Source of the DNA: Solibacillus sp. FSL H8-0523
GTDB taxonomy: Bacteria; Bacillota; Bacilli; Bacillales_A; Planococcaceae
DNA: 64,000 nt
Direction: 5' to 3'
Assembly: GCF_038051985.1 (NCBI RefSeq)
Contig: NZ_CP150291.1
Coordinates: forward strand, 1,240,001 to 1,304,000
Positions 30,198 through 57,520 of the stretch are shown here, in pieces. The notes beneath the pieces are model-generated. The model was not told where the DNA came from, did not search any database, and was given only the letters and a program-made list of their open reading frames with translations. The translations under genes were made by a program, and so were the position numbers. Positions within the stretch are counted from its first letter, which is position 1, and the number at the start of each line of letters is the position of its first letter.

Positions 30198-31332
30198 CGT
30201 AATAAAAAGCATTGAAAACGCCGGTTTTGAAGCATTTATCGTTGGTGGCGCGGTCCGTGATTACTATTTAAACAAAAAAAATCATGATGTCGACATTGCC
30301 ACAAGTGCACTCCCAGAAGAAATTCAGGCGATTTTTCCGCAGACGATTGACGTCGGTATTGAACATGGTACCGTACTCGTCATGCACAAAGGTGAGCCGA
30401 TTGAAGTGACGACATATCGTACGGAATCGACGTATTCAGACCACCGAAGACCAGATGCCGTTCATTTCGTCCGCAATTTAGCAGAAGATTTAAAGCGTCG
30501 TGATTTTACAATGAATGCGATGGCGTTAAGTCAAACGGGTGAATATATTGACCTGTATGAAGGACGCAAGCATATTGATGAACAGTTGATTTGCGCGGTT
30601 GGCATTGCAGCGGAACGCTTTGGCGAGGATGCGCTCAGAATGCTGCGTGCTGTTCGTTTTGCAGCCCAGCTGAATTTTACAATTGAGGCTGAGACCTTTG
30701 CAGCAATCGGGCAGCAAGCCACTTCGATTGAGCTTATTGCAATGGAACGCATTCAAGTAGAGCTTTCAAAAATATTTACAGCAAGCCACGTAGCACAAGG
30801 GATTCATTATCTAGAAACCTCGGGGCTTGCTGCGTATTTACCAGGACAGTTTGATGCAACGGCTTGGCATAATTTTAATTCAGATAACCGCCAAGTAGGA
30901 TGGGCGTATTTTTGTTTAGTAAATGAGGATGCGACCTTATTAACAAACTATCGTTGCTCGAATAAGGATAAGCAGTTTACAAAGCTGGTATTAGAGGCAT
31001 ATGACTGTCTGATCCGTGGTGTGAAGCGAATCGATTTACTGCGCTTTGACCTGGACGTTCTTCAAACAGCGTATCAGTTTATGAAGCTGCGCAAACAAGA
31101 AGTAACAATTACTTGGCAAGAGGTACAGCAGCGAAAACAAGCTTTACCGATTCAATCGGCAAAGGAGCTTGCGATTACTGGACAAGATGTCATGATGTGG
31201 TCAGCAAAAAAACGCGGTCCATGGATAAAAGAAACGCTTGAAGCCGCGGTATCTGCCGTTGTAAATGGTGAAGTAACAAATGATAAACAACAATTAAAGG
31301 ACTGGTTTCATGCAACGATCGATGAAGGATGA
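30166..31332 (+). CDS. cca: CCA-adding tRNA nucleotidyltransferase
   Basis: Adds or repairs the 3' CCA of tRNAs without a nucleic acid template. The class II nucleotidyltransferase motif G-G-A-V-R-D lies at 27-32, with catalytic D41 and D43 in H-D-V-D-I-A-T; R-R-D-F-T-M-N-A-M-A follows, and E-D-x-L-R-M-L-R-A-V-R-F (with A between D and L) marks the helical neck. At 388 residues it has normal length. It overlaps bshA upstream and birA downstream, showing tight operon packing. Confidence 0.96.
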   Translation: MIPKHWQGAIDVIKSIENAGFEAFIVGGAVRDYYLNKKNHDVDIATSALPEEIQAIFPQTIDVGIEHGTVLVMHKGEPIEVTTYRTESTYSDHRRPDAVHFVRNLAEDLKRRDFTMNAMALSQTGEYIDLYEGRKHIDEQLICAVGIAAERFGEDALRMLRAVRFAAQLNFTIEAETFAAIGQQATSIELIAMERIQVELSKIFTASHVAQGIHYLETSGLAAYLPGQFDATAWHNFNSDNRQVGWAYFCLVNEDATLLTNYRCSNKDKQFTKLVLEAYDCLIRGVKRIDLLRFDLDVLQTAYQFMKLRKQEVTITWQEVQQRKQALPIQSAKELAITGQDVMMWSAKKRGPWIKETLEAAVSAVVNGEVTNDKQQLKDWFHATIDEG

Positions 31333-32293
31333 GATTTTACATCGTTTTTTAAATGCACAGGGTGAACCAATTTCGGGTCAGCAGTTAGCTGATGATTTCC
31401 AAGTGTCGCGCACTGCAATTTGGAAGCATTTGCAAAGCTTACAGCAGGAGGGCTATACATTTGAAACGCTTAAAAAGCGTGGCTATAAACTCCTTGCTGT
31501 ACCAGACCGCGTAGATTTTGGTCAGTTAAAGCAGCTATTAACAACGAAGCGCTATGGCCAGCAGGTGCATTACTTTGAACGTGTGGAATCCACGCAGCTT
31601 GTGGCACATGACTTAGTACGTCAAGGTGTACCAGATGGCACGCTTGTCATTGCTGAGCATCAAACCGCAGGGCGTGGCCGTATGCAGCGTGAATGGGAAT
31701 CGTCTGAGGGCAAAGGGATTTGGATGACGCTTATTATTCGTCCTGAAATTGCGCCACATCAAGCACCACAATTTACACTTGTAACGGCTGTTGCTGTTGT
31801 CAATGCAATGAAAGTAAGTTTTCAAAACTTCACACCACAAATTAAGTGGCCGAATGATATTTTAGTAAATGGGAAAAAAACGACGGGCATTTTAACGGAA
31901 ATGATTGCCGAAGAAAATCGTATTCAAGCTTTACTGATTGGTATTGGCATTAATGTCAATCAAGAGCAAGCCGATTTCCCAGATGCTCTGCAAACGATTG
32001 CAACTTCCGTGGCAATTGAAGAAGGCCAGCAAGTCGACCGTGTGCAATTAGTGGCAAAGGTGCTCGATTTTTTAGAGCATTACGGCGACCATTATGTCAA
32101 ACACGGTTTCCCGCTTATTAAAAAGCTATGGGAAGAATCTTCCTGCACGATTGGCAGTCAAGTACGCGCGACAACGCTACGTGAAGTCGTAGAAGGTGAA
32201 GCGATTGCGATTACGGATTCAGGTGTCCTTGAAATTCGCCAGGCTAATGGGGAGATAAAAGGCGTTTATTCAGCGGATATCGAGATTTTATAG
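31310..32293 (+). CDS. birA: Biotin-protein ligase and biotin repressor
   Basis: Bifunctional protein: an N-terminal winged helix (about 1-65, S-R-T-A-I-W-K-H-L) that represses biotin genes when loaded, and a ligase domain that attaches biotin to acetyl-CoA and pyruvate carboxylases. The biotinyl-AMP motif G-R-G-R-M-Q-R-E-W lies in the ligase domain, followed by K-W-P-N-D-I. The start ATG is 9 bases after TAAAGG and overlaps cca by 23 bases; a second in-frame ATG lies 12 bases on. Confidence 0.95.
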   Translation: MQRSMKDEILHRFLNAQGEPISGQQLADDFQVSRTAIWKHLQSLQQEGYTFETLKKRGYKLLAVPDRVDFGQLKQLLTTKRYGQQVHYFERVESTQLVAHDLVRQGVPDGTLVIAEHQTAGRGRMQREWESSEGKGIWMTLIIRPEIAPHQAPQFTLVTAVAVVNAMKVSFQNFTPQIKWPNDILVNGKKTTGILTEMIAEENRIQALLIGIGINVNQEQADFPDALQTIATSVAIEEGQQVDRVQLVAKVLDFLEHYGDHYVKHGFPLIKKLWEESSCTIGSQVRATTLREVVEGEAIAITDSGVLEIRQANGEIKGVYSADIEIL

Positions 32294-32302
32294 CCTTTTG
32301 AT

Positions 32303-32340
32303 ACTCCCCGCGGAAAGCATCCGCCGTAGCGTAGCAGAAC
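32303..32340. repeat. GC-rich intergenic repeat-like hairpin
   Basis: ACTCCCCGCGGAAAGC continues into ATCCGCCGTAGCG; GCGG pairs with CCGC. It lies 10 bases after birA and may help terminate it. This type of CCCCGCGGAAAGC element is one I associate with Bacillaceae intergenic repeats, but only one copy is present here. Confidence 0.4.
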
Positions 32341-32396
32341 CGTCAACTTATGATGATTAACATTAAAATAATATTCTGTACGTTTTCTTCTAAAAT

Positions 32397-32405
32397 TGTT
32401 ATAGT
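32397..32405 (+). promoter_or_regulatory. Extended -10 promoter of the pan leader
   Basis: TG-T-TATAGT is an extended -10 element; no good -35 box is present. Transcription would begin near 32411, at the base of the first pan hairpin. Confidence 0.45.
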
Positions 32406-32409
32406 AGCT

Positions 32410-32504
32410 CTAGGACAGTATCTACTTGCTTAGAACTGTACCTAGTAAGAAATGATTACACTACTATAAAAAAATCTGCCTTGATCTAACTAGACAGGGA
32501 CGGA
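32410..32504 (+). ncRNA. Pan-motif-like tandem hairpin leader upstream of panBCD
   Basis: There are two hairpins of the same build. Hairpin 1 (32410-32445): CTAGG, ACAGT, bulged A, TCTA, loop, TAGA, ACTGT, bulged A, CCTAG. Hairpin 2 (32475-32504): TCTG, CCTTG, bulged A, TCTA, loop, TAGA, CAGGG, bulged A, CGGA. The inner TCTA/TAGA stem and both bulged adenosines are in identical places, while the other stems differ in sequence but still pair. This matches, as far as I recall it, the pan RNA motif described upstream of pantothenate genes. A strong terminator follows at 32622, so control of read-through is likely. Confidence 0.72.
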
Positions 32505-32556
32505 AGAAAACAAGCGTTAATAAGCAAGGCTAATAGGCGACTAGGAACCTTGATAA

Positions 32557-32590
32557 AGCACTATTTTGATTTTTCGAAAAGTGTTTTTTG
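32557..32590 (+). terminator. Possible weak terminator in the pan leader
   Basis: CAC and TTTT pair with AAAA and GTG across a two-base bulge, followed by TTTTTTG. It is upstream of the stronger terminator. Confidence 0.4.
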
Positions 32591-32621
32591 ACGCACAAAA
32601 ACCTAATTGTAATTTTACAAT

Positions 32622-32662
32622 GGGGCTCTTCTGTCTAATTTTAGACAGGAGAGCTCTTTTTT
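32622..32662 (+). terminator. Terminator/attenuator immediately upstream of panB
   Basis: A 14-pair stem, GGGCTCTTCTGTCT with AGACAGGAGAGCTC (G-T pairs allowed), loop AATTTT, then six T. It lies about 30 bases before the panB start and after the tandem hairpins, so it is a probable expression platform. Confidence 0.9.
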
Positions 32663-32690
32663 GTTTTCTTCCTCAAATAAGGAGGACAGA

Positions 32691-33527
32691 ATGAAAACGA
32701 CAGCTCAGTTTTTAACAATGAAAGAGCAGCAAGAAAAAATCGTTATGGTCACGGCGTATGATTACCCTGGCGCGAAATTTAGTGAAGAGGCCGGGGTCGA
32801 TATGATCTTAGTTGGGGATTCACTTGGCATGGTCGTACTTGGCTATGACTCAACAATGCGCGTGACGGTCGATGATATGATTCACCATAGTAAAGCGGTT
32901 CGTCGCGGTGCCCCAGATACGTTCATCGTAGTCGATATGCCGTTTGGGTCGTATCACGGGGATGTCAATGACACATTAAAAACAGCGGTACGCATGATGC
33001 AAGAAACGAATGCCAATGCGGTAAAAGTCGAAGGCGCTGGCGATATCGTACCGGTCATTAAAAAGTTAACCGATGCTGGTATTCCTGTTGTAGCGCATCT
33101 TGGTTTACTGCCACAATCCGCAGGTGTTTTAGGTGGCTATAAGGTGCAAGGAAAAACGGCGGAGCAAGCAGCAAAATTAATTGAAGATGCACGCGCGGTA
33201 GAACAGGCGGGTGCATGTGCGGTTGTACTCGAGTGTATTCCACATCAATTAACAGCGGTTGTTTCAGAAAAGCTAGTGATCCCAACAATCGGTATTGGTG
33301 CGGGCGTTGAAGCAGATGGTCAAGTGCTTGTCTTCCATGATTTACTGCAATACGGCAAACATCATATCCCAAAATTTGTGCACGGCTTTGCACAAGTTGG
33401 CAATGAAATCGAGCGTGGGTTAAAAGGCTATACAGCTTCAGTAAAAGCAGAAACATTCCCAACACTTGCGCATAGCTTTACGATGAAAGAGGAGCAATTA
33501 AACGAGCTGTATGGAGGCATAAAATAA
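32691..33527 (+). CDS. panB: 3-Methyl-2-oxobutanoate hydroxymethyltransferase
   Basis: It forms ketopantoate from ketoisovalerate and methylene-tetrahydrofolate, the first committed step to pantothenate and CoA. T-A-Y-D-Y-P-G-A and [13 protein letters not shown] are the substrate- and metal-binding motifs, and I-P-T-I-G-I-G-A-G lies near the C-terminus. The ATG 5 bases after AAGGAGG gives 278 residues, the usual length. A longer frame starting in the terminator is rejected. Its stop overlaps the panC start. Confidence 0.96.
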
Positions 33528-34390
33528 TGAATGTACTCACAACAATTGCACAGCTTCGCCAAGTTGTGTTAGATACTAAAAATCAACATCAAACAATCGG
33601 CTTAGTGCCAACAATGGGCTATTTACACGAGGGGCATTTAACATTAGCACAACATGCCAAACGTGAAAATGATGTCGCCATCATGAGTATTTTCGTCAAT
33701 CCAACACAGTTTGGACCAAACGAAGATTTCGAATCGTATCCACGCGACTTAGCACGTGATACGAAGCTAGCGGCATCAGTGGGTGTTGACTATATTTTTG
33801 CGCCAGCAGTTGAAGAGATGTATCCACAAGACGGTGGGATTCGCATTCGCGCCGGACGCCAAGCAGAGCTACTATGCGGGGCAAGTCGTCCCGGTCATTT
33901 CGACGGAGTACTGCAAGTCGTTGCCAAATTATTTAATTTAGTTCAGCCAGATCGTGCCTACTTTGGACAAAAGGACGCGCAGCAAGTCGCGATTATTCAA
34001 ACGATGGTACGCGATTACAATTTCCCGATTGAGCTACGCGTAGTTCCAGTCGTGCGTGAAGAGGACGGATTAGCAAAATCAAGCCGCAATGTGTATTTAA
34101 ATGAAACAGAGCGCACACAAGCACCGGCCATTCAGCAAGCATTACAACTAGCAAAATGCGAGCTTCAAGAAACACAAGATGTAAAAAAAGCGCTCGCACT
34201 TGCAACAAAACTAATTGAAGACAATACGGATGGAAATATTGATTATTTGTCGATTTTATCGTATCCAGATCTTAACGAAGTAACAGTAGATACAGAACAA
34301 ATTGTTTTAGCCGCAGCTGTTTATCTAGGTAAAACAAGATTAATTGATAACGTGATTTTTTCATTAAAAGGAGAAATGGCACATGTTTAG
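33527..34390 (+). CDS. panC: Pantothenate synthetase
   Basis: ATP-dependent ligase joining pantoate and beta-alanine. The nucleotidyltransferase motif [11 protein letters not shown] (27-37) is the HIGH-like signature, and [10 protein letters not shown] and the K-S-S-R-N motif are present. At 287 residues it has normal length. It overlaps both panB (TAATG) and panD, so the three steps are translated together. Confidence 0.96.
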
Positions 34391-34766
34391 AATGATGATG
34401 AATAGTAAAATTCACCGCGCACAAGTCACACAAGCAGACTTAAATTATGTCGGTTCGATTACGATTGACCAAGATATTTTAGATGCGGTGGGTATGCTAG
34501 CAAATGAAAAGGTGCATATCGTGAATAATAATAATGGTGCCCGCTTTGAAACATATATTATCGCAGGCGAGCGCGGATCGGGTGTTATTTGTGTGAATGG
34601 TGCAGCAGCTCGTTTAGTGCAAAAAGGCGACATTGTCATCATTATCTCCTATGTGTACGTTGATCATAAAGAAGCTGCGAATCATAAGCCAACTGTAGCA
34701 ATTATGGGCGAACACAATACAATTAAAGAAATGATCAGCTACGAACCAGAAGCAACGGTGATGTAG
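34383..34766 (+). CDS. panD: Aspartate 1-decarboxylase (pyruvoyl-dependent)
   Basis: It makes beta-alanine from aspartate for PanC. The pro-enzyme cleaves itself between G24 and S25 in N-Y-V-G-S-I-T-I-D, and Ser25 becomes the pyruvoyl cofactor. [10 protein letters not shown] and N-G-A-A-A-R-L match the family core. At 127 residues it has normal length. It ends the pan operon at a terminator. Confidence 0.97.
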
Positions 34767-34955: not shown

Positions 34956-35528
34956 ATGTTTAAAAACAAACTATTTTTAAGCTTAGTACTAGTGTTAATG
35001 GGCTCTATCTTCTATGTAAATGTAACAAATGCAGCTACTCATACAGTTAAGACTGATGAAGAATTAGATGAAATCGCCGATCGCTATGATACAACAGTAG
35101 ATATACTTTTAAAATTAAATGGTTTAACAGAAATGGAAGAAGCCGTTACCGGTTTTGTTTTACAGTTACCTGACCAAATTCAAAACAAACCTGCTGTTAA
35201 AGAGGAAAAGATAGAAATGTTAGAGGATTATGAAGTTGTCAAAACAATGACTGTTGAAGCAAGTGCCTTTACCGCGAATTGCAAAGGGTGCTCGGGTAAA
35301 ACAGCTTACGGTATTGATTTACGTAAAAATCCGAACATCAAATTAATTGCTGTAGATCCAAAAATAATTCCGCTTGGCACGAAAGTTTGGGTGAAGGGCT
35401 ACGGAATTGCTATTGCTGGTGATACAGGCGGGTCGATTAAAGGTGGCAAAATTGATTTATTTATGAAAACAAAAAAGCAAGCGTATAGCTGGGGTCGTAA
35501 AAAAGTAGAAATAAAAATTTTAAAATAA
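34956..35528 (+). CDS. Secreted LysM-like/3D-domain protein
   Basis: This 190-residue secreted protein has a signal peptide (about 1-27, cleavage after N-A-A) and a LysM-like cell-wall-binding segment (H-T-V-K-T-D-E-E-L-D-E-I-A-D-R-Y, about 29-75). A C-terminal 3D domain contains three key aspartates in V-D-P-K-I-I-P-L-G, D-T-G-G and K-I-D-L-F. The 3D fold is shared with Rpf/MltA-type wall enzymes (YocH, YabE, YuiC in B. subtilis), so muralytic activity at the wall is likely. A 9-base inverted repeat, TTACAAAAT/ATTTTGTAA (34817-34849), lies upstream. Confidence 0.85.
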   Translation: MFKNKLFLSLVLVLMGSIFYVNVTNAATHTVKTDEELDEIADRYDTTVDILLKLNGLTEMEEAVTGFVLQLPDQIQNKPAVKEEKIEMLEDYEVVKTMTVEASAFTANCKGCSGKTAYGIDLRKNPNIKLIAVDPKIIPLGTKVWVKGYGIAIAGDTGGSIKGGKIDLFMKTKKQAYSWGRKKVEIKILK

Positions 35529-35734: not shown

Positions 35735-37623
35735 GTGCGCCCGGCATGCGCATGAACTATAGGGTGCAAGTCCCGAACCCCGAAGACAGAAGTAGAGGTT
35801 AGCCAAAAGCAAGGGTGTCCGTGGCGACGCGGAATCTGAAGGAAGCTGGCGGCAAAACACCGGTCCGAGGAACACGAATCTCATAGAAGGCTAGGTATGA
35901 TTGGATGAATCTGCAAGACAAGATAAAGTCCCTTCTGTCGAAGGTCATATCAAGTAAATGAGGCGGATAGATGGTGTGAAAGTGCATGCGCTTACCCGGG
36001 GAGGTCTGACAGTAATGTGAAGTACCCTTCATAACCTACTTGGTGACAAGTAGCTGAACTGTCAGAAGTCAGCAGAGGTCATAGTACAAGTAAGTCTAGA
36101 ATTACTTGGAAGGACTGAACAATTAGGAGAGAATAGCCCTTGGCTTTCCAATTAGGATGAACGAACACAGAAAACAGTAGAAACCTCACGCTTAGAAAGT
36201 AGTGGTGAATTCCACGAGGGTATTTGCGGAGGGTGTAGTCCAGTTGGGTAAAAGAAGAACAGCTATTCACGGAAAGGAACGAAATGGTGATGTTGAATCA
36301 AATTTTGGAGCGACAAAACATGATACAAGCATTAAAGCGAGTAGAAGCGAATAAAGGAAGCCACGGAGTAGACATGATGCCCGTACAAACCGTACGACAG
36401 CACATCCTCGAAAATTGGCATACGATTAAATCGCAGATTTTAGATGGTACCTATGAACCGCAGCCAGTCCGTCGTGTCGAAATCCCGAAACCAGATGGCG
36501 GTGTGCGCTTATTAGGAATACCAACCGTGACAGACCGTTTGATTCAACAAGCCATCTCGCAGATTTTATCAAAAGAATATGACCCAACATTTTCAGACCA
36601 CAGTTATGGCTTTCGTCCAAATCGAAGCGCTCATGATGCGGTCAGAAAAGCGAAAGGCTATTTAAAAGAGGGCTATCGATGGGTGATTGATATGGATTTG
36701 GAGAAATTCTTTGATAAGGTCAACCATGACCGTCTAATGGCAACATTAGCAAAACGAATTTCAGATAAACCATTATTAATACTGATTCGTAAATACCTCC
36801 AAGCGGGTGTCATGATAAATGGAGTAGTTTCAAGTACAGAAGAAGGGACACCTCAAGGTGGTCCTTTAAGTCCTTTACTTTCTAATATCGTCTTAGACGA
36901 ACTCGATAAAGAATTAGAGAAACGTGGACATAAATTCGTTCGATACGCAGATGACTGTAATATTTATGTGAAAACAGAGCGTGCAGGAATACGGGTAATG
37001 GCAAGTGTACAGCGATTTATCGAAGGAAAACTTCGCCTGAAAGTAAATGAAAAGAAATCAGCGGTAGACCGTCCGTGGAACCGTAAATTCCTAGGCTTCA
37101 GTTTTACACATCATAAAGAACCGAAAGTTCGCATTGCGAAATCAAGCCTCATACGAATGAAGAAGAAAATACGAGAAATTACCTCAAGAAAGATGCCTTA
37201 TTCCATCGAATACAGAATCGAAAAGTTGAATCAATATCTGATAGGTTGGTGTGGCTACTTCGCTCTAGCGGATACGTACTCCATATTTAAAGCATTAGAT
37301 GGCTGGATTAAACGAAGATTACGTATGTGTTTGTGGAAGAATTGGAAGAACCCCCGAACAAGAGTCAGAAATCTCATTCGTCTAAAAGTACCTTACGGGA
37401 AAGCATACGAGTGGGGAAATACCCGAAAAGGGTACTGGCGCATTTCAAATAGCCCCATATTACACAGAACCCTCGGCAATTCCTATTGGGAAAGCCAAGG
37501 GCTGAAAAGTCTGCAAGTTCGTTACGAAACTTTGCGTTATTCATCTTAATTGAACCGCCGTATACGGATCCGTACGTACGGTGGTGTGAGAGGTCGGGAG
37601 TTAATCACTCCCTCCTACTCGAT
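35735..37623 (+). mobile_element. Group IIC intron with intron-encoded protein
   Basis: The element begins GTGCGCCCGG, the conserved GUGYG 5' end, two bases after the T tail of a terminator hairpin, the known landing site of class C introns. About 550 bases of ribozyme precede the reverse transcriptase gene. Domain V is seen at about 37552-37587 (ACCGCCGTA/TACGGTGGT), and domain VI at 37596-37612 (GGGAG/CTCCC). The 3' end is probably the AT of CTACTCGAT. All core parts seem present, so it may be active. The exact 3' junction is uncertain by a few bases. Confidence 0.9.
36284..37549 (+). CDS. ltrA: Group IIC intron reverse transcriptase/maturase
   Basis: This 421-residue intron-encoded protein helps the intron splice and copies it into DNA targets. 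It has the RT domain with catalytic R-Y-A-D-D and G-T-P-Q-G-G-P-L-S-P-L-L, then the maturase (X) domain with L-N-Q-Y-L-I-G-W-C-G-Y-F. There is no C-terminal endonuclease domain, as expected for class C. The length and many segments match my memory of the GsI-IIC protein of Geobacillus stearothermophilus. The frame is undamaged. The ATG follows AAAGGA by 5 bases. Confidence 0.95.
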   Translation: MVMLNQILERQNMIQALKRVEANKGSHGVDMMPVQTVRQHILENWHTIKSQILDGTYEPQPVRRVEIPKPDGGVRLLGIPTVTDRLIQQAISQILSKEYDPTFSDHSYGFRPNRSAHDAVRKAKGYLKEGYRWVIDMDLEKFFDKVNHDRLMATLAKRISDKPLLILIRKYLQAGVMINGVVSSTEEGTPQGGPLSPLLSNIVLDELDKELEKRGHKFVRYADDCNIYVKTERAGIRVMASVQRFIEGKLRLKVNEKKSAVDRPWNRKFLGFSFTHHKEPKVRIAKSSLIRMKKKIREITSRKMPYSIEYRIEKLNQYLIGWCGYFALADTYSIFKALDGWIKRRLRMCLWKNWKNPRTRVRNLIRLKVPYGKAYEWGNTRKGYWRISNSPILHRTLGNSYWESQGLKSLQVRYETLRYSS

Positions 37624-57122: not shown

Positions 57123-57520
57123 ACATCAATTATCGAGTAATCGCTGCGCTCATTCGAGTGTAGAGGAAAGTCCATGCTCACACGGTGCTGAGATGCCCGT
57201 AGTGTTCGTGCTTACTGAAAAAATAAGGTAAGGCAAGGTGCAAGCCTTGACGGCGGAAGGAACTCCTAAGTCTTTTTGATATGGACGAAACTTCCTGAAA
57301 GTGCCACAGTGACGGAGCTTATTAGGAAACTAATGAGGTGGAACGAGGTAAACCCCATGAGTGAGAAACCCAAATTATGGTAGGGGCACTCTCCTGAAGG
57401 AATTGAACAGATGGAGGGACGCAAATTCGTTTGCGTAGATAGATGATTACTACCTAGTCGTACGAGGCGCAAGCTGTTTGAGTACTTAGGAACAAAACAT
57501 GGCTTATTGATTATTGATGC
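57123..57520 (+). ncRNA. rnpB: RNase P RNA, B type
   Basis: Catalytic RNA of RNase P, which trims tRNA 5' ends. Conserved segments are clear: GTAATCGCTGCG, GAGGAAAGTCCATGCTC, GGTGCTGAGATGCCCGTAG, GAAAGTGCCACAGTGACG, GTAAACCCC, GAGAAACCCAAATT and ATAGATGATTACTACC, ending AACAAAACATGGCTTA. The ends pair as helix P1 (CATCAAT/ATTGATG). The order of conserved blocks is that of the Bacillus (B-type) RNA. It follows gpsB, as in B. subtilis. The ends are exact to within a few bases. Confidence 0.96.

Follow-up and report, generated by a model that had tools for sequence, protein, structure and literature searches.

Organization of the panBCD locus

The window, by which we mean the whole 64,000-nucleotide stretch of Solibacillus sp. 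FSL H8-0523 DNA that was analysed, carries the genes panB, panC and panD downstream of a birA-like biotin protein ligase gene, and the leader that is the subject of this study occupies the space between birA and panB (Table 1). Further downstream, a LysM/3D-domain protein (34956-35528) is encoded between panD and a group II intron (35818-37623; Rfam domain matches at 35818-35990, 36032-36115 and 37553-37623), which contains a reverse transcriptase/maturase (36284-37549). A bacterial RNase P class B RNA is found at 57129-57511 (325.5 bits).

Table 1. Coordinates of the genes and leader elements in the window
Feature	Coordinates	Strand	Evidence or remark
Biotin protein ligase gene (birA-like)	31310-32293		Upstream flank of the leader
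-10-like TATAGT; transcription start expected near 32412	32400-32405	+	Sequence
pan hairpin 1, two bulged A	32412-32443	+	Rfam RF01749; fold
pan hairpin 2, two bulged A	32475-32504	+	Rfam RF01749; fold
b strand GGACGGAAG, hairpin-2 base (3' side) with the bases that follow; proposed 5' half of the antiterminator	32498-32506	+	Nascent folds, 154 leaders
A strand GGAAGAAAAC, upstream partner in the predicted long-range helix	32502-32511	+	Swap tests, examples, fold to 32676
Branched insert with closing stem GCGUUAA/UUGACGC, within the antiterminator loop	32514-32594	+	Fold
Intrinsic terminator hairpin, T-run to 32662	32622-32657	+	Terminator scan; fold
b' strand CTTCTGTCT, 5' side of the terminator stem; proposed 3' half of the antiterminator	32628-32636	+	Folds, leader comparison
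A' strand GTTTTCTTCC, partner of A, with an end able to pair with the Shine-Dalgarno sequence	32663-32672	+	Swap tests, fold
Shine-Dalgarno sequence AAGGAGGA, partly within a hairpin at 32670-32686 (fold to 32692)	32679-32686	+	Sequence, fold
panB	32691-33527	+	PF02548, 3.2e-108
panC	33527-34390	+	PF02569, 7.4e-107
panD	34383-34766	+	PF02261, 1.8e-51

A sigma-70 scan of 32240-32720 returned zero promoters. The hexamer TATAGT lies 7 bases from hairpin 1, and a -10-like hexamer within 22 bases upstream of hairpin 1 is present in 134 of 154 related leaders compared with 90 of 154 shuffled ones, 9 bases being the commonest spacing. Given this hexamer just upstream, the RNA probably starts about at hairpin 1. 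An outer stem proposed by the fold, TATAGTAG/CTACTATA (32400-32407 with 32461-32468), was rejected: the likely -10 box makes up its 5' half, which would therefore be missing from the transcript.

The leader belongs to the pan family

The first-pass annotation had recognized the pan motif in this leader and had suggested a covariance-model search. The Rfam model RF01749 (pan) matches 32412-32507 with 61.9 bits, well above its gathering score of 36.2, with E-values of 2e-8 when the whole window is searched and 1.3e-10 when the search is confined to 401 bases. The source genome holds one pan match in total. Together with a folding z of -8.6 for the leader (32400-32666, against 200 shuffles), this score bears out the earlier judgement that the arrangement is beyond chance. 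The covariance alignment and the fold place two bulged A residues in each of the tandem stems, and in the fetched relatives panB or panC is preceded by a leader built the same way, so the assignment withstood both outcomes named as fatal to it, a missing pan match and unconserved pairing. The leader is thus a member of a known family and no new motif; other Rfam families gave only sub-threshold matches within it.

The common plan described for the two hairpins, with one bulged A immediately 5' of TCTA and a second one five bases 3' of TAGA, was recovered in both. The inner TCTA and TAGA sequences are likewise present in each hairpin, but the four-pair inner stem does not close in hairpin 2, which folds with three pairs and a 4-base loop because only two bases separate TCTA from TAGA. 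In the leaders of relatives that we inspected by eye, the inner stem is short and variable, mostly UC/GA, so the complete agreement of the two hairpins here in TCTA/TAGA looks like a local coincidence.

Distribution of pan leaders

A pan match was found in 111 of 121 genomes of the family sample, in 250 of 261 genomes of an order search whose listed genomes all belong to the same family, and in 222 of 398 genomes of a class sample (stricter filters apply above 40 genomes). Five of the 11 family genomes without a match have panB; all five belong to one genus (g10) and make up five of its eight genomes. By eye, the corresponding loci (L267, L268, L269, L271 and L272) have panB with no pan leader seen upstream, and in L271 birA is almost directly followed by panB. 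To judge by this inspection, these cases would be natural losses of the switch. Two pan matches per listed genome were found in another genus (g8), and its ten fetched genomes (L032-L051) have one pan leader before panB and another before panC, pairs that provide natural duplicates for the comparison of variants. In L207 and L208 the leader is followed by a Rossmann-fold reading frame, assigned by Pfam to PF10728 (DUF2520) for the L207 protein only, which we take to be a possible ketopantoate reductase.

For the comparative analyses, 265 loci were collected, of which 240 were parsed (25 were not), 211 were distinct and 207 had a terminator called by script. The final set comprises 154 leaders with a terminator found and with less than 85% identity over the first 240 coding bases; the script-called terminators are doubtful in some leaders, such as L005, L052 and L194. 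We labelled the leaders by the sequence at the 3' base of hairpin 2 as GGGACGG, GGACAGAGG and GAGACAG types, which we assume to be mainly Planococcaceae-like, Bacillaceae-like and Paenibacillus/Brevibacillus-like, respectively. A pattern search requiring the GGGACGG type gave 118 stretches, all of which were analysed as loci; Lysinibacillus, Sporosarcina and Planococcus are among the matches listed.

A putative antiterminator competing with hairpin 2

The terminator that had been proposed as a plausible off switch ahead of panB was recovered, with corrected dimensions: it has 16 pairs instead of 14 and ends 33 bases, not 30, before the ATG at 32691. Its role as an off switch is supported and gains from the present analysis a predicted antiterminator partner. 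Folding showed that b, made up of the 3' base of hairpin 2 and the nucleotides that follow, is able to pair with b', the terminator's 5' strand; this pairing excludes the base of hairpin 2 and reaches a probability of 0.81 in the window leader. On stepwise folding, hairpin 2 is intact in the RNA ending at 32622; at 32635 and 32641 the b:b' antiterminator is formed and has opened hairpin 2 at its base; in the RNA to 32657 the terminator has formed and hairpin 2 is restored; and at 32676 the A:A' helix described below appears. Leaving b' unpaired costs 3.2 kcal/mol at 32641 relative to the antiterminator state, a margin that a binding effector could outweigh. This figure replaces an earlier energy penalty of 15 kcal/mol, which looked like a constraint artefact.

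The competing pairing is also predicted in the related leaders. For the hairpin-2 strand against the 5' strand plus loop of the terminator, the pairing energy is -14.1 kcal/mol compared with -10.1 when that region is shuffled, the real sequence doing better in 139 of the 154 leaders, whereas the control, the same strand against the terminator 3' strand, gave no excess in these leaders (-4.65 versus -4.55). With the hairpin-2 5' strand omitted, the mean probability of pairing between the hairpin-2 base strand and b' is 0.78, compared with 0.34 for composition-preserving shuffles, and is higher than in the shuffles in 148 of 154 leaders. When that 5' strand is included, the antiterminator is still favoured over hairpin 2 in 123 of 154, so that sensor and expression platform are mutually exclusive as judged by folding. 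In the minimum-energy folds, hairpin 2 is broken and then restored upon completion of the terminator in 90 of 154 leaders; counting against the model, it stays unbroken at both folding stages in 50 of 154.

Co-variation between b and b' was not detected over the whole set, in which own partners scored -14.11 and swapped ones -13.92, with 569 of 5000 permutations as good. Since both strands are nearly constant across species, the case for b:b' is one of conserved complementarity. Swap tests within subsets hint weakly at co-variation, in the GGGACGG type (151/5000 at 97 leaders, the signal being lost at 35) and in the GAGACAG type (92/5000 at 28 and 249/5000 at 24). At five of eight core positions, conservation is higher on the 5' strand of the terminator than on the 3' strand, whichever strand serves as the anchor. 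The 5'-anchored comparison (143 of 154 leaders) is biased toward the 5' strand and was therefore repeated with 3' anchoring (91 of 154) and without anchoring; unanchored counting of pairs from the outer or the inner end showed no clear excess of 5'-strand conservation, and the asymmetry is small.

By eye, some leaders have a CUGCCC ahead of the terminator that could pair with the hairpin-1 5' strand; as CUGCCC is missing from other leaders, this pairing was not retained. In four GAGACAG-type leaders (L221, L225, L226 and L227), GTCCC is found by eye in or next to the terminator loop, complementary to GGGAC of the hairpin-2 3' strand near its loop, which suggests a differently placed antiterminator in these leaders.

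The 81-base branched insert between A and b' is replaced by a shorter hairpin in several relatives, and is probably a lineage-specific elaboration of that hairpin. The stretch 32508-32622 is single-copy in its own genome, which rules out a repeat.

A predicted long-range helix to the ribosome-binding region

The A strand, adjoining hairpin 2, can pair with A', which is located directly upstream of the panB Shine-Dalgarno sequence. The complementarity is seen with differing sequences in different leaders, for example GGAAGAAAACA with TGTTTTCTTCC in L010, GGAGGAAACCAA with TTGGTTTCCTC in L026, CAGAGGGTCGAAACAA with TTGTTTCGTCTCCTCTG in L070 and GGGACAGAGGGATGAAACAAT with ATTGTTTTATCGCCTCTTTTCC in L062. 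With the Shine-Dalgarno sequence removed, the real partners in the 154 leaders pair at -15.25 kcal/mol and swapped partners at -12.43. Permutations as good as the real pairing numbered 0 of 5000 at 154 leaders, 0 at 73, 7 at 30 and 94 at 9. When only bases outside the purine core were used, the corresponding counts were 0, 0, 2000 and 1131 of 5000, the result at 30 leaders thus not being significant. The strongest effect was observed in the GGACAGAGG-type leaders (-20.65 versus -15.74, 0/5000, in 11 lineages below 75% identity). The swap-test signal is absent in GAGACAG-type leaders, and it is absent within the window's own sequence type (4270/5000 at 30 leaders), in which the strand hardly varies.

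An alignment in a fixed register, covering 140 of the 154 leaders, gave a weaker result than the swap test: the paired fraction was 0.628, compared with 0.598 when permuted (maximum 0.620 of 2000), with 14/5000 at 68 rows and 581/5000 at 32 rows, and a slide by two columns surpassed the chosen register (0.639 versus 0.628). A count of double changes on the tree of 140 panB leaders did not discriminate (212 versus 222.5, sd 11.5, 40 shuffles), whereas a tree-based test of the paired fraction exceeded the shuffles (summed 11.71 versus at most 10.80 in 40). In the full-leader ensembles, fewer than two bases of the strand are paired with A' in 38 of 154 leaders.

The helix probably adds a translational step, because the Shine-Dalgarno sequence can be partly masked by A' when A' is not paired with A. 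Pairing of the Shine-Dalgarno sequence is only slightly above shuffles (0.73 versus 0.66; 96 of 146 leaders), and when the window leader is folded to 32692, A' is divided between A and the Shine-Dalgarno sequence. In L008, L012 and L013, inserts part the terminator from A', and A' still adjoins the Shine-Dalgarno sequence, which fits a role in translation. The leader L194 has hairpin 2, a short A:A' stem-loop and a Shine-Dalgarno sequence, with no separate terminator, and is a candidate for a translation-only pan switch.

Discussion

Our analyses support, with reasonable probability, a model in which this pan-family leader is a cis-regulatory element attenuating panBCD. Transcription would begin about at hairpin 1, and b could pair with b' once the latter has emerged from the polymerase. 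The resulting antiterminator would open hairpin 2 at its base, together with the pairs that flank its second bulged A, and would block the terminator, so that the operon is read. If instead an effector holds both pan hairpins, hairpin 2 would retain b, the terminator would form and transcription would stop. After passage of the polymerase, the A strand could pair with A' ahead of the ribosome-binding site. The pan identity, the competing pairings with their presence in relatives and the A:A' co-variation across lineages were computed here; the order of events, the polarity (bound meaning off) and any effect on translation are what we infer.

Regulation of this design has known counterparts. 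At the Bacillus pyr operons, PyrR binds a leader hairpin that is followed by a terminator and a competing antiterminator, and in the riboswitches of Bacilli that terminate transcription, such as those for FMN and TPP, a strand of the aptamer is shared with the antiterminator. The pan leader resembles the former in its leader hairpin, terminator and competing antiterminator, these being predicted here by folding and the regulator being putative; its sequence is not that of a PyrR leader (RF00515, 24.6 bits, below the cut-off of 54). It resembles the latter in the strand common to sensor and antiterminator, but its conserved core is much smaller. The pan motif itself was described in 2010 and deposited in Rfam (Weinberg et al. 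2010, PMC2864571). As far as the available part of that description goes, our leader agrees with it in the tandem stems with two bulged A residues each and in the position ahead of panB, and shows no differences in the core. What lies beyond the Rfam match, which ends at 32507, is most of the partner bases of the antiterminator and of A:A'. Excerpts of three transcriptome papers list the motif (PMC4342826, PMC4634765 and PMC5670726), the first and the last of them before panB. Among the matches listed from open-licence PubMed Central, neither a pan ligand nor the antiterminator or the A:A' helix was recognized in titles and abstracts.

A direct riboswitch, in which both pan hairpins would bind a small molecule of the pantothenate/CoA pathway in front of the same attenuator, has in our judgement a little less than an even prospect. 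It accounts for leaders that sit before panB, panC or, in two instances, the DUF2520 gene, and for a platform that is mutually exclusive by folding. The conserved core, just two bulged A residues per hairpin, is very small, however, and the discoverers, in the part of their report available to us, marked the motif as an ambiguous 'switch?' and proposed a dimeric protein-binding motif (PMC2864571). Two reviews from 2022, in their excerpts, also place CoA among the compounds without a known riboswitch (PMC10043782, PMC9971707). Following Weinberg et al. (PMC2864571, as excerpted), who pointed to the tandem, simple stems, we lean slightly toward a protein rather than a metabolite as the effector.

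The attenuation model also has to be weighed against a plain attenuator or polarity terminator, in which no antiterminator forms, the b/b' match is simply that of a purine-rich with a pyrimidine-rich strand, and the sole action of pan is on translation, by way of A:A'. The missing overall co-variation of b:b' would be expected in that case, and the sole terminator-like hairpin that the script found in L194 is made of the A and A' strands themselves. We nevertheless regard it as unlikely, because shuffles that keep the composition fall short of the observed b:b' pairing in nearly all leaders, the control with the terminator 3' strand is null, and of the two terminator strands the 5' one shows slightly higher conservation. 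Less probable still is the opposite polarity, with a bound effector favouring readthrough or translation. Folding leaves the polarity unfixed, as the completed terminator and hairpin 2 coexist; the antiterminator, however, draws on the base of hairpin 2 that the effector would stabilize, so that binding should favour the terminator, and repression by the end product is usual in biosynthetic operons.

Returning to the model of an effector-held hairpin 2, we tentatively propose a wider reading, namely that many pan leaders of Bacilli may be two-stage switches. The strand that begins in the base of hairpin 2 and runs on beyond it would serve first in the antiterminator and would then be handed over to the anti-Shine-Dalgarno strand near panB, so that one strand would control transcription and subsequently translation, through a co-varying handover helix that lies outside the Rfam match. 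With a specific antiterminator proposed, and with a helix to the ribosome-binding region that co-varies, the pan class becomes testable by simple mutations, and the ratio of terminated to full-length RNA would provide a readout for whether pantothenate, CoA or a protein is sensed.
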